Assembly (NCBI GenBank): GCA_902785105.1
Contig: CACZXF010000051.1
Location: 1-43,466 of the forward strand
Length of the DNA stretch: 43,466 bases
Source of the DNA: an uncultured Eubacteriales bacterium
Lineage (GTDB): Bacteria > Bacillota > Clostridia > Christensenellales > Aristaeellaceae
Direction of reading: 5' to 3'
Part shown: positions 34,303 to 37,390 of the stretch, in pieces
Position numbering within the stretch: the stretch's first letter is position 1
Layout of the letters: each line of letters begins with the position of its first letter
Notes under the pieces: generated by a model
What the model was told of the DNA's origin: nothing
The model's input: only the letters and a program-made list of their open reading frames with translations
The model's database searches: none
Program-made: the position numbers and the translations under genes

Positions 34303-34345
34303 TAAATCTGTTGTTCTGCAATTCAATTTACAGGCAACAGATTTA
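34303..34345. promoter_or_regulatory. Candidate operator of the Nif11-like gene array
   Basis: Perfect 11-bp inverted repeat TAAATCTGTTG (34303-34313) and CAACAGATTTA (34335-34345), separated by 21 bases. The right arm lies between the -35 and -10 of the promoter. This is a natural place for a dimeric repressor; no regulator gene is nearby. Confidence 0.6.
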
Positions 34346-34355
34346 TTTTTATAAT
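34327..34355 (+). promoter_or_regulatory. Promoter of the Nif11-like gene array
   Basis: TTTACA, 17 bases, TATAAT, 36 bases before the first ATG and overlapped by the inverted repeat. Confidence 0.8.
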
Positions 34356-34390: not shown

Positions 34391-34780
34391 ATGTCAAAGG
34401 AATCCGCGGGGGCGTTTGTGCAGGCGGTATTGGGAGATGAAGCGCTTCACCAGCGCACGGCGAACCTCGAGCCGGAGCGCGTGGCCGAAATCGCGAAGGA
34501 ACTGGGCTATGACTTCACGGCGGAGGAGCTTGCCGAAGCCGTCAACGACAGCGTGGAGCTGAACCCCGACGAGCTTGAAGCGGCGGCGGGCGGCAGGAAC
34601 AATTCCGGAAATAACAAAGAGATCTACTGCCGCGGCAGCAACAACACCCGCAGGCATGAGTTTGTGATGATCGGCCAATTTGAGGACCGCTATTTCGGGT
34701 GGACGGACAGCTATGAGGTCTATAAATGCAAGCTCTGCGGCTATCAAAAGAGAAAGAGCATATACAGAGGAGAAAGGTGA
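34391..34780 (+). CDS. Nif11-leader peptide with C-terminal CHCC module, gene 1
   Basis: 129 residues. Residues 1-68 look like a Nif11-type (nitrile-hydratase-related) leader of a ribosomally made peptide: an N-terminal helix with FVQAVLGDEALHQRT, the EIAKELGYDFTAEELAEAV segment, and ELNPDELEAAAGG ending in Gly-Gly at 67-68, the usual processing point. The part after GG is not a short cysteine-rich core. It holds C80, H89, C113 and C116 in the order C-x8-H-x23-C-x2-C, with VYKCKLCGY at the second pair, like a small zinc ribbon. Ribosome site AAGGAGGGCGAACCG. No modifying enzyme or exporter is adjacent. Function unknown. Confidence 0.8.
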   Translation: MSKESAGAFVQAVLGDEALHQRTANLEPERVAEIAKELGYDFTAEELAEAVNDSVELNPDELEAAAGGRNNSGNNKEIYCRGSNNTRRHEFVMIGQFEDRYFGWTDSYEVYKCKLCGYQKRKSIYRGER

Positions 34781-34829
34781 CCAATGCTCAGACGGTGCGC
34801 GAATAATATATAAAAAGGAGGACAATACG

Positions 34830-35261
34830 ATGGCAAAGGAAGCGGCGATGGGATTTTATCAGTTGATCCTGGAGGATGAGGAACTCCGCGAACGTACAGC
34901 GAATCTCAAGCCCGAGGAAGTGGCGGAGATCGCGAAGGGGATGGGCTTTGTCTTCACGGCGGACGAGCTGGCCGAAGCAGTGAAGGAAGACAACCGGGAG
35001 CTTACCCCCGAAGAGCTCGAAGGGGCAACGGGCGGCCATGATCGTGGAGGTTATAGCGGGTCTAAAAAAGAGAAGACACACTGTCACGGCATTGCGAAGG
35101 GTCCCCGGCATCAATGGGTATATGTCGGCCACAAAGAGCAAAACTGGGGACTTTTTACCTTGGGAATCAACGTATATAAATGTAAGCTCTGCGGCTATGA
35201 AAGGAATGTAGGCACAAAGGGCAATGGAGAACTGAAAACGGACATATTCCATGAAGATTGA
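34830..35261 (+). CDS. Nif11-leader peptide with C-terminal CHCC module, gene 2
   Basis: 143 residues from the ATG at 34830 (AAAAGGAGGACAATACG upstream; a longer in-frame start lies inside gene 1 and is not used). Leader 1-69 with EDEELRERTANLKPEEVAEI and ELEGATGG (Gly-Gly 68-69). The C-terminal part repeats the gene 1 module exactly: C85, H94, C118, C121 (C-x8-H-x23-C-x2-C), again VYKCKLCGY. It starts 49 bases after gene 1 and ends before a good terminator, so genes 1 and 2 form one transcript. Confidence 0.8.
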   Translation: MAKEAAMGFYQLILEDEELRERTANLKPEEVAEIAKGMGFVFTADELAEAVKEDNRELTPEELEGATGGHDRGGYSGSKKEKTHCHGIAKGPRHQWVYVGHKEQNWGLFTLGINVYKCKLCGYERNVGTKGNGELKTDIFHED

Positions 35262-35300
35262 CCGCCGGCCTGGCCGGTGATTTGACTGTGCCCTGTGAAT

Positions 35301-35323
35301 ACCCCGCCCGAAGCGGGGTTTTT
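35301..35323 (+). terminator. Terminator after Nif11-like gene 2
   Basis: CCCCGC, loop CCGAA, GCGGGG, then TTTTT; 40 bases past the stop codon. Confidence 0.85.
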
Positions 35324-35354
35324 GGTGTACGAAATGGGTATATGAAGGAACTTA

Positions 35355-35520
35355 GTAACTATTCAGTCCACCCATATAAATTGAAGTTTGCAGGGGAGTC
35401 AAACCAACCTTGTAGGGGCGCCGTTTCGGCGCCCGCCCCTAACGAAACGCATCGTCCTACCCGGCGGGCGGTGGGACCGCTCCCAGCGGCCCCTGTTTAT
35501 CGACAGGACTGAATAGTTAC
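35355..35520. repeat. Family 1 element with perfect terminal repeats and target duplication (copy 14)
   Basis: GTAACTATTCAGTCC (35355-35369) and GGACTGAATAGTTAC (35506-35520) are perfect 15-bp inverted ends. GGAACTTA flanks both sides (35347-35354 and 35521-35528). The right inner arm has a deletion. The element separates Nif11-like gene 2 from gene 3. This copy defines the element boundaries. Confidence 0.93.
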
Positions 35521-35556
35521 GGAACTTATTTGATTTCAGAAAAGGAGGACAATACA

Positions 35557-35991
35557 ATGGCAATCGAAGCAGCGATTGGATTTGTAAAGTTGGTCATGGA
35601 GGATGAGGAGCTTCGCCAGCGCACGGCAGACCTCAAGCCGGAGGAAGTGGTCGACATTGCGAAGGAGAAGGGCTTTGTCTTCACGGCGGAGGAACTGACC
35701 GAAGCATCGAACGAAGTCAGGGAGATTACTTCCGACGAGCTTGAAGCGGCAACGGGGGGAGGGTCTAAACAAGTAGTTCCTTCTAATAGTCATGCAAGGG
35801 CCAAGAAGATATGGTGTAAGGGTCAGCATAAAAATGGCAAACATAATTATGTTTTTTCCCGCCACACGGAGGAGAAATGTCTTTGGTGGACTAATGGATA
35901 TAATGTCTATAAATGCACACGTTGCGGGTTTGAATACAAAATATCTACAGACGGCAAAGGAATGGAGAAACATTCTTTAGCAGACATATAA
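35557..35991 (+). CDS. Nif11-leader peptide with C-terminal CHCC module, gene 3
   Basis: 144 residues from the ATG at 35557 (AAAAGGAGGACAATACA upstream, nearly identical to the gene 2 site). Leader 1-68 with EDEELRQRTADLKPEEVVDI and ELEAATGG (Gly-Gly 67-68). The C-terminal module keeps C87, H96, C120, C123 with identical spacing to genes 1 and 2, plus an extra C108, while the residues between differ considerably. No promoter is clear between the inserted element and this gene; the insertion probably separated it from the array promoter. Confidence 0.8.
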   Translation: MAIEAAIGFVKLVMEDEELRQRTADLKPEEVVDIAKEKGFVFTAEELTEASNEVREITSDELEAATGGGSKQVVPSNSHARAKKIWCKGQHKNGKHNYVFSRHTEEKCLWWTNGYNVYKCTRCGFEYKISTDGKGMEKHSLADI

Positions 35992-36057: not shown

Positions 36058-36111
36058 ATGTCAAAGGGCTGAGCAGGCGCATTCGCGCAGGCAGTTGTGG
36101 AGGATGAAGCG
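36058..36111 (+). pseudogene. Decayed fourth Nif11-leader gene
   Basis: ATGTCAAAGGGCTGAGCAGG aligns with the start of gene 1: MSKG-stop-AGAFAQAVVEDEA against MSKESAGAFVQAVLGDEA. One codon has become a stop, and the similarity ends after DEA. A terminator follows at 36161. This is a relic of another array member, too short for an ordinary gene finder. Confidence 0.75.
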
Positions 36112-36160
36112 CCGCGCGGGCAAGGTCCGATGGCGCGGGGCCTCTGCGCCAGCGCGCCTG

Positions 36161-36475: not shown

Positions 36476-36616
36476 CCGTAGGGGCGGCGTTGCGCCGCCC
36501 GCCCGATAGAACGCGATGTCTCGCAGGGGGCGGGCGCCGAAACGGCGCCCCTACAGGGTTGGATTGACTCCCCGACAAATTCCCATCTGCGGATTGAGCA
36601 AAGGCTGAATGGTAAC
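36476..36616. repeat. Family 1 palindromic element, copy 15
   Basis: Left end missing; full core and right end CCCCGACAAATTCCCATC, continuing to GGCTGAATGGTAAC, which matches the outer terminal repeat of the copy at 35355. Confidence 0.8.
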
Positions 36617-36686: not shown

Positions 36687-36699
36687 AGTATAAAATTGA

Positions 36700-36880
36700 A
36701 TATCGGGAAATCTGCGGGTTCCGGCGTTGGCCGGATCAAAAGGGAACGGGGTGAGAATCCCCGACAGGACCGCTGCTGTGTGGGCGAGTGATGCGCGGAA
36801 AGCCATTGGCGCAAGCCGAGAAGGCGCGTATCGCGATGAACCCGAGCCAGAAGACCTGCCCGTGGACGAAATATCAGTTT
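36700..36880 (+). ncRNA. Cobalamin riboswitch aptamer
   Basis: Contains the conserved core in order: AAAAGGGAACGGGGTGAGAA then TCCCCGACAGGACCGCTGCTGT, GCGCGGAAAGCCATTGG (B12-box-like GCCATTG), and GAGCCAGAAGACCTGCC near the 3' end. It would bind a cobalamin and repress a downstream gene through the hairpin at 36963-36995. No B12 transport or synthesis gene follows within the window. Confidence 0.9.
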
Positions 36881-37200: not shown

Positions 37201-37390
37201 GCTAATTATTTAGTCTATTCCTATAAATTGAAGTTTATCGAGGAGACAAACTATCCCTGTAGGGGCGCCGTTTCGGCGCCCGCCCCCTGCAAGACGTCGC
37301 ATCCTATCGGGCGGGCGGCGCAACGCCGCCCCTACAGGAGAGCGGGTAACTCACCGACAAATCCCCGTTTATAGAAGGACTGAATAGGTA
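37201..37390. repeat. Family 1 element with 8-bp target duplication (copy 16)
   Basis: Flanked by TCTCTTTT at 37193-37200 and 37391-37398. Terminal repeats are worn (GCTAATTATTTAGTC and GGACTGAATAGGTA) but the inner ends ATAAATTGAAGTTTATCG and CACCGACAAATCCCCG and the core are intact. Confidence 0.85.

Follow-up and report, generated by a model that had tools for sequence, protein, structure and literature searches.

Proteins that begin with a Nif11-type leader are annotated by default, through their NCBIfam name, as RiPP precursors. The locus described here raises the question of what such a leader is doing in front of a segment that resembles a small metal-binding domain. The window, by which we mean the entire 43,466-nucleotide stretch of DNA that was analyzed, contains three adjacent forward-strand genes of this design, and the sections below address in turn their conservation, their predicted fold, the possibility of modification, and the route of export.

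Three adjacent Nif11-leader genes share a ligand frame

Genes 1, 2, and 3 encode putative precursors of 129, 143, and 144 amino acids (positions 34391 to 34780, 34830 to 35261, and 35557 to 35991, respectively, all on the + strand); the ATG starts of genes 2 and 3 lie inside longer, mechanically called open reading frames. Each open reading frame matches both TIGR03798 and the Pfam Nif11 model. The TIGR03798 scores of 58.9, 47.6, and 49.7 bits exceed the cutoff of 32.3 bits in all three cases, which bears out the preliminary description of three adjacent genes with a Nif11-type leader ending in Gly-Gly. The leaders occupy positions 34391 to 34594 (+; 68 residues; E value, 4.5e-16), 34830 to 35036 (+; 69 residues; E value, 1.4e-12), and 35557 to 35760 (+; 68 residues; E value, 3.3e-13), with the Gly-Gly end at residues 68, 69, and 68. 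Behind each leader, a pattern scan locates the spacing C-x8-H-x23-C-x2-C exactly (34628 to 34738, 35082 to 35192, and 35815 to 35925, all +), and the six translated frames of the window contain no other instance. When each module was shuffled alone 200,000 times, the exact frame arose in 2e-5, 5.5e-5, and 1.5e-4 of the shuffles.

A candidate sigma-70-like promoter (TTTACA-17-TATAAT, 11 of 12 consensus bases, 34327 to 34355, +) lies 35 bases 5' of gene 1, and a terminator-like hairpin (35301 to 35319, +) lies between genes 2 and 3. Both are consensus matches only, and three promoter-pattern matches were found in the region where 1.6 were expected. Given the candidate hairpin, genes 1 and 2 may be transcribed separately from gene 3. 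Downstream of gene 3, positions 36058 to 36112 (+) hold the decayed start of a fourth Nif11 leader with an early stop, identical to the start of gene 1 at 41 of 55 bases (blastn against 1,009 downstream bases; E value, 2e-6).

Conservation and divergence of the module

In all, 25 modules were compared. Of these, 19 were picked out by a strict pattern applied to 31 loci with 100 leader hits (the hits include at least one plainly false one, inside a large enzyme), and 6 with longer loops or a Tyr change were added by eye; one of the latter, on stretch L134, is absent from the 20-row alignment but forms part of the 21-row alignment. The 25 do not include a broken host gene (C28:7658), an L135 gene at 8433 that is cut by the contig end, or the leader-only locus L136. 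The four predicted ligand columns are the four most conserved in the set (C in 25/25, H in 25/25, C in 24/25, and C in 25/25, followed by Tyr in 21/25), although two near-identical pairs from related genomes mean that those rows are not independent. In the single exception, Tyr replaces a ligand Cys. The notion of a fixed ligand frame in an otherwise variable segment is thus upheld. The claim of identical spacing is correct for the three window genes and fails beyond them, given that the 25 modules range over C-x(5, 7, 8, or 14)-H-x(22 to 32)-C-x2-C; exactly invariant spacing is therefore ruled out as a general rule. The Gly-Gly is retained in all 25 module proteins.

Leader and core diverge unevenly. 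Over the 20 full-length rows, mean pairwise identity is 62% for leaders and 29% for cores. Six matched gene pairs were picked for the likeness of their cores. In every pair, the core shows less synonymous divergence than the leader (pooled, 0.14 versus 0.40), and pooled pN/pS is 0.40 for the cores and 0.28 for the leaders. The simplest reading of these sequence comparisons is that cores have been passed between leaders or that leaders have been converted by their neighbors.

Distribution of module genes

Elsewhere in the host genome, which spans 3.44 Mb and is 92% complete, contigs C18 and C22 also carry module genes, and contig C28 has one intact and one broken copy. When gene 2 was searched against 200 genomes of the bacterial family, 7 matched, and the match ran through the module in the host and one other genome (G120) only. 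Seven loci emerged from a scan of 84,980 species genomes, and six of them, from five genomes, carry the module. Two of these genomes are titled Ruminiclostridium (loci L130 and L134/L135), one Ruminococcaceae (L132), and the remaining two actinobacterium and Atopobiaceae (L131 and L133); these genomes are metagenome assembled and may have been misbinned, though L131 and L133 are mutually consistent. Of the five titled genomes, three were recovered from rumen, omasum, or ileum samples and are probably those of anaerobes. Gene arrangement varies from scattered copies to arrays: L130 holds eight module genes in tandem with gaps of 17 to 54 bases, and L132 holds 23 consecutive Nif11 genes, one with the module and 22 with other cores.

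The preliminary description had looked to homologues consisting of the module alone as support for a folded domain, and none turned up in genomes of the order, viral contigs, plasmids, or phage records. The module profile matched 21 of 396 genomes of the order at an E value of ≤0.01, with a best value outside the host of 1.7e-4; the four matches that were read (L040, L041, L043, and L044) proved to be CxxC redox-like proteins or large surface repeats and were rejected as relatives. A class-wide search with a full-length profile returned Nif11 proteins with other cores and, among the matches examined, no additional module outside the host. Two scans of viral contigs gave no module relative and plasmids gave no match. 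Among phage records, two records of one phage matched under half of the query at an E value of 0.4, and a second query matched none. The best PHROGs value was 0.002, in 1 of 21 members, for an unnamed family. An origin in a phage or mobile element is without support in these viral, plasmid, and phage searches.

Predicted fold of the module

For the isolated 54-residue module of gene 1, AlphaFold predictions built from 21 natural sequences gave five concordant models (mean pLDDT, 80.7 to 82.1; best model, 82.1), in keeping with the earlier suggestion of a folded domain. The predicted compact sheet has three strands (residues 16 to 26, 29 to 38, and 44 to 53). In this model, C38-x2-C41 sits in the turn after strand 2, and H14 immediately precedes strand 1, which places it opposite that turn. 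Residues 4 and 13 form a lone bridge that would put C5 beside H14 and close the site; the clustering of the ligands is deduced from this predicted secondary structure. The full-length model of gene 2 is weak (mean pLDDT, 67.4; pTM, 0.37): its leader is helical, its linker is disordered, and the three strands recur at lower confidence.

Comparison with known folds and families gave no match above threshold. Foldseek returned nothing at an E value of ≤0.001 for either model. In the PDB, the isolated module came closest to ZPR1 (E value, 0.30), followed by many copies of one ribosomal protein of the zinc-ribbon type, and the best match among viral models had an E value of 0.011. The full-length model matched pyrophosphatases best (E value, 0.28), a result with no bearing on the zinc-ribbon reading. 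No Pfam model matches the module above cutoff where cutoffs were shown; in the scan of 21 modules, for which curated cutoffs were given for the first member only, the best value was 0.001 for Desulfoferrod_N, at 19.1 of the required 23 bits. By sequence, the PDB offered nothing better than a 13-residue rubredoxin turn (E value, 0.04). The module has the Y-x-C-x2-C-G turn in common with zinc ribbons and rubredoxin-type knuckles. Where those have a second CxxC, the module has C-x5..14-H as its first pair. As in a zinc ribbon, its four C/H ligands are kept across diverged relatives (in 25, 25, 24, and 25 of 25 modules).

Search for modification enzymes

The absence of a maturase or peptidase-exporter gene from the window, as first reported, was supported by inspection of the open reading frame list and by tblastn with five query proteins (three radical SAM/SPASM proteins, the SCIFF maturase, and a C39 exporter), which retrieved ABC-ATPase matches only. 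Across the 92% complete host genome, there was no LanC-like match and no YcaO match, whereas the same searches matched 1 and 5 of 14 control genomes, respectively. The host search for radical SAM enzymes was directed at SPASM-bearing proteins and yielded one, the SCIFF maturase (770 bits). Neither the enzymes of lanthipeptide or azole formation nor a dedicated SPASM maturase was thus found in the host.

Radical SAM proteins do adjoin other Nif11 genes in three genomes, G119, G167, and G120, and those of G119 and G120 scored as radical SAM/SPASM. Three Nif11-linked radical SAM proteins have no relative in the window, at the host's other Nif11 loci, or in L130 to L136, in searches in which their source loci matched as positive controls. 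The G119 enzyme also had no match in the host genome, a silence that carries little weight because that search lacked a positive control and missed the host SCIFF maturase as well. The G120 locus does carry a radical SAM/SPASM gene on the opposite strand, separated from the module gene by three Nif11 genes, so modification is possible there.

These results bear on the view that the genes encode true RiPPs, with the core modified in trans by a radical SAM enzyme lacking SPASM or by an enzyme of another class and with the Cys and His residues serving as sites of modification or recognition. Nif11 leaders are indeed known from precursors of modified peptides, according to Haft (2010; PMC2887384), and the radical SAM proteins beside other Nif11 genes in G119, G167, and G120 point the same way. 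We nevertheless regard this view as unlikely: the host has no LanC-like or YcaO match and its sole SPASM protein is the SCIFF maturase, the Nif11-linked radical SAM proteins have no relatives near the modules in L130 to L136 or the window, and the predicted sheet, compact and with a conserved CxxC turn, is more in line with metal binding.

Presence and linkage of the exporter

The NHLM/C39 exporter model TIGR03796 scored above cutoff in all seven module genomes searched (the host, G120, and the five genomes of L130 to L134). This finding supports the earlier proposal of a leader that directs a folded mini-protein to secretion. The same model exceeded its cutoff in 0 of 14 control genomes and in 73 of 200 genomes of the bacterial family. 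The host exporter (TIGR03796, 922.7 bits; TIGR03797, 727 bits; both above cutoff) is encoded as a pair, alone on a 4.9-kb contig (C111) distinct from that of the window, and would therefore act in trans. Across the 200 family genomes, with Nif11 called at an E value of ≤1e-5 and TIGR03796 at ≤1e-150 (76 genomes), 25 of 27 Nif11-bearing genomes encode the exporter, compared with 51 of 173 genomes that lack Nif11, an odds ratio of 30 (P = 3e-10) that ignores kinship among the genomes. The two Nif11 genomes lacking an exporter match are perhaps incomplete assemblies. Ten genomes of the host's genus contained the exporter in eight cases and a Nif11 match in none, and the exporter must thus have other uses.

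Physical linkage was found outside the host. In G120, a module gene (L113:5385-5765) lies directly 5' of an exporter operon on the same strand, with the order SpoIIE, STAS-like, HATPase-like, HlyD-like, TIGR03796, and TIGR03797; the STAS and HATPase genes were recognized by eye against L130. In L130, the eight-gene array is divergent from genes for SpoIIE, STAS, HATPase, and HlyD-like proteins, at which point the contig ends. The SpoIIE phosphatase, STAS, and HATPase genes that precede the exporter (L130:239-2868, -; L113:6131-8624, +) may form a partner-switching set that controls secretion. Separately, the host contig C22 carries two paired ABC half-transporters, neither of which matches a C39 domain (L010:3348-7880, G000:C22), and the module gene of that contig follows by approximately 500 bases.

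The exporter data also address the proposal that the module is an intracellular metal-binding domain and that the Nif11 part serves for docking or dimerization, with no export. Zinc ribbons are commonest in cytoplasmic nucleic acid-binding proteins, and the window genes are not adjacent to an exporter. Against these points, the Gly-Gly is kept in 25 of 25 proteins, the exporter exceeds its cutoff in seven of seven genomes, module genes stand beside the exporter operon in G120 and beside the opening genes of that operon in L130, and Nif11 and exporter co-occur across the 200 genomes. We therefore judge an exclusively intracellular role to be distinctly improbable.

Other cargo behind Nif11 and double-glycine leaders

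The preliminary description had named homologues with the same leader and unrelated C termini as grounds for refutation, and such homologues exist. Within the same bacterial family, the leader precedes CxCV-GGGGT repeats, DGHEMGC and DYxC types, and short amphipathic segments, and a bond between this leader and this module is not supported. The leader is thus best viewed as a generic signal for processing and export, which leaves the reading of the module as a folded domain open. Tandem arrays with three C-x-C … G-G-G-G-T repeats behind Nif11 leaders were seen at L108 (G064:C38), L109 to L111 (G042), L117 to L120, L122, and L126, and in G064 the exporter is close by on the same contig as these genes. 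At L132:620-11100, 22 of the 23 Nif11 cores are of the W..(E/D)..DG(H/K)E..C..(C/S)YH/NL type. Cores of the DGHEMGC type adjoin the radical SAM genes in G119 and G167 (L116 and L124). At L127 (G031:C36), several genes in a row carry short amphipathic cores, such as DTVKEWFGSLFGK, behind their leaders.

Domain-like cargo is found behind other double-glycine leaders as well. In the host's genus, three GG proteins are encoded just upstream of an exporter (L141:10315-11415, -), and two of the three exceed the cutoff for SH3_3. As in the module genes, a GG leader is followed by a domain, and unlike in the module genes, the leader is short and not of the Nif11 type. The same likeness and the same difference apply to a four-Cys GG protein of G120 (L114:2082-2342, -), whose match to the PaaD zinc ribbon falls just below cutoff (25.4 of 27 bits). 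Together with L116:5203-5694 (+), this protein has a GG-like or Nif11-like start and four Cys residues in ribbon-like spacing, and one of the two heads an exporter operon in G120. When 16 exporter-side stretches were searched for a GG pattern, candidates appeared in 7, of which one is plainly spurious; domain-like GG cargo is therefore offered as an example and not as a census.

Proposed model

Taken with the exporter data, the conservation of the ligands, and the predicted fold, the most probable explanation in our view is that these genes encode exported, unmodified, metal-folded mini-proteins that behave as exchangeable cassettes. Each gene would give rise to a two-part precursor composed of a Nif11 leader and a cargo of about 60 to 90 residues. 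The leader would act as the address for an NHLM ABC exporter with a C39 peptidase, which would cut after the Gly-Gly. The cargo would undergo no chemical modification and would instead fold as a small domain around a single metal ion, in all likelihood zinc, with the C, H, C, and C residues holding the metal in a three-stranded, zinc-ribbon-like sheet. It would probably cross the membrane as a flexible apo chain and fold outside. Across the scattered copies and tandem arrays of these genes (three in the window and eight in L130), the ligand frame is kept and the segments between the ligands diverge, and cores would be exchanged between leaders as cassettes.

Export need not imply a metal. Disulfides are often used by secreted small proteins, and some cores contain further Cys residues, so the modules could instead be exported disulfide mini-proteins without a metal. 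The number of conserved Cys residues is odd (three), all 25 modules have His as the fourth conserved residue, and three of the five titled genomes derive from the rumen, omasum, or ileum, probably from anaerobes; we accordingly hold the chances of this alternative to be slim. That the genes are recent, functionless duplicates that have the ligand pattern in common by descent finds some encouragement in the broken host copy at C28:7658 and the remnant at 36058 and is scarcely credible when the ligands are kept at 29% mean core identity in genomes titled as different phyla and the pooled core pN/pS is 0.40.

For the metal-folded, exported mini-proteins that we favor, what they would do outside the cell is the least secure part of the model. 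Varied, unmodified bacteriocin-like proteins would be our first choice and surface-binding proteins our second. Of the features of class II-type bacteriocins, the Gly-Gly and the exporter are present, whereas the gaps of the L130 array (17 to 54 bases) leave no room for an immunity gene, which weakens the bacteriocin role.

Relation to known systems

The combination of leader and exporter is already known. In the accessible text of Haft (2010), N11P genes were found beside a TIGR03794/03796/03797 transporter in several genomes (PMC2887384), and the N11P family (TIGR03798) has its leader type, Gly-Gly site, exporter pair, and paralogous expansion in common with the module genes. That text presents N11P as substrates of azole or lanthionine machinery, enzyme classes that our searches did not find in the host, and the module cargo differs further in its greater length and its conserved C, H, C, C frame. 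Prochlorosins (PMC10783134) resemble the module genes in that numerous Nif11 precursors, whose cores differ from one another, depend on a single shared system. Prochlorosins are made by the ProcM enzyme, whereas the host lacks a LanC-like match. The nine Nif11-type precursors LahA1-9 of Lachnospiraceae C6A11, with their diverse cores and C39 transporter, offer a further parallel; according to the part of PMC6363468 consulted, the C39 protease domain of LahT cleaves these leaders at the double Gly.

Cargo of protein size for C39 transporters has precedents as well. In the excerpt of PMC6959990, the PCAT1 substrate CtA has 90 residues, and its cargo part is unstructured within the transporter cavity. 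For MAM of Faecalibacterium prausnitzii, export by a PCAT has been proposed, with the PCAT gene nearby in some strains and elsewhere in others (PMC8836110, in excerpt). Both resemble the module precursors in pairing protein-sized GG cargo with a C39 transporter, and the accessible portions of the two papers mention neither a metal-ligand domain nor a Nif11 leader. What appears to be new is the cargo, both to Pfam at its cutoffs and to the literature searched, as far as the retrieved text extends. Searches of the open-licence literature returned nothing on Nif11 with a zinc finger, nor on a zinc ribbon with a double-glycine leader peptide, and the titles and opening lines of abstracts on Nif11 with zinc did not concern such cargo. 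The initial impression of an undescribed design thus stands for the retrieved portions of the open-licence literature on Nif11 or double-glycine leaders in connection with zinc or the gut, a scope that excludes most subscription journals.

It is quite possible, if somewhat short of probable, that these observations reflect a broader principle: in bacteria of the rumen and gut that belong to two or more phyla, the NHLM/C39 exporter may secrete folded mini-domains in general (zinc ribbons and SH3b domains), not modified peptides only, and the C, H, C, C module may be an undescribed family of metal domains, a variable secreted scaffold diversified by the swapping of cores between leaders in tandem arrays. 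Should this be so, part of the RiPP annotation now attached to Nif11-leader proteins would be wrong, some of these proteins would be vehicles for folded metal domains, and catalogs of putative RiPPs in gut and rumen genomes would have to make room for a second class. The known cargo of peptidase-containing exporters would widen, and a compact secreted scaffold with loops already varied by nature would become available.

Other elements in the window

Two further features were observed in the window. A cobalamin riboswitch at 36699 to 36877 (+; 109.7 bits) is the only Rfam match over its gathering score. The 8-mer GTAGGGGC occurs 16 times on the + strand and 17 times on the - strand (for example, at 35412, 36478 to 36547, and 37259 to 37328), often as facing pairs approximately 70 bases apart in intergenic DNA, which marks it as an interspersed palindromic element.
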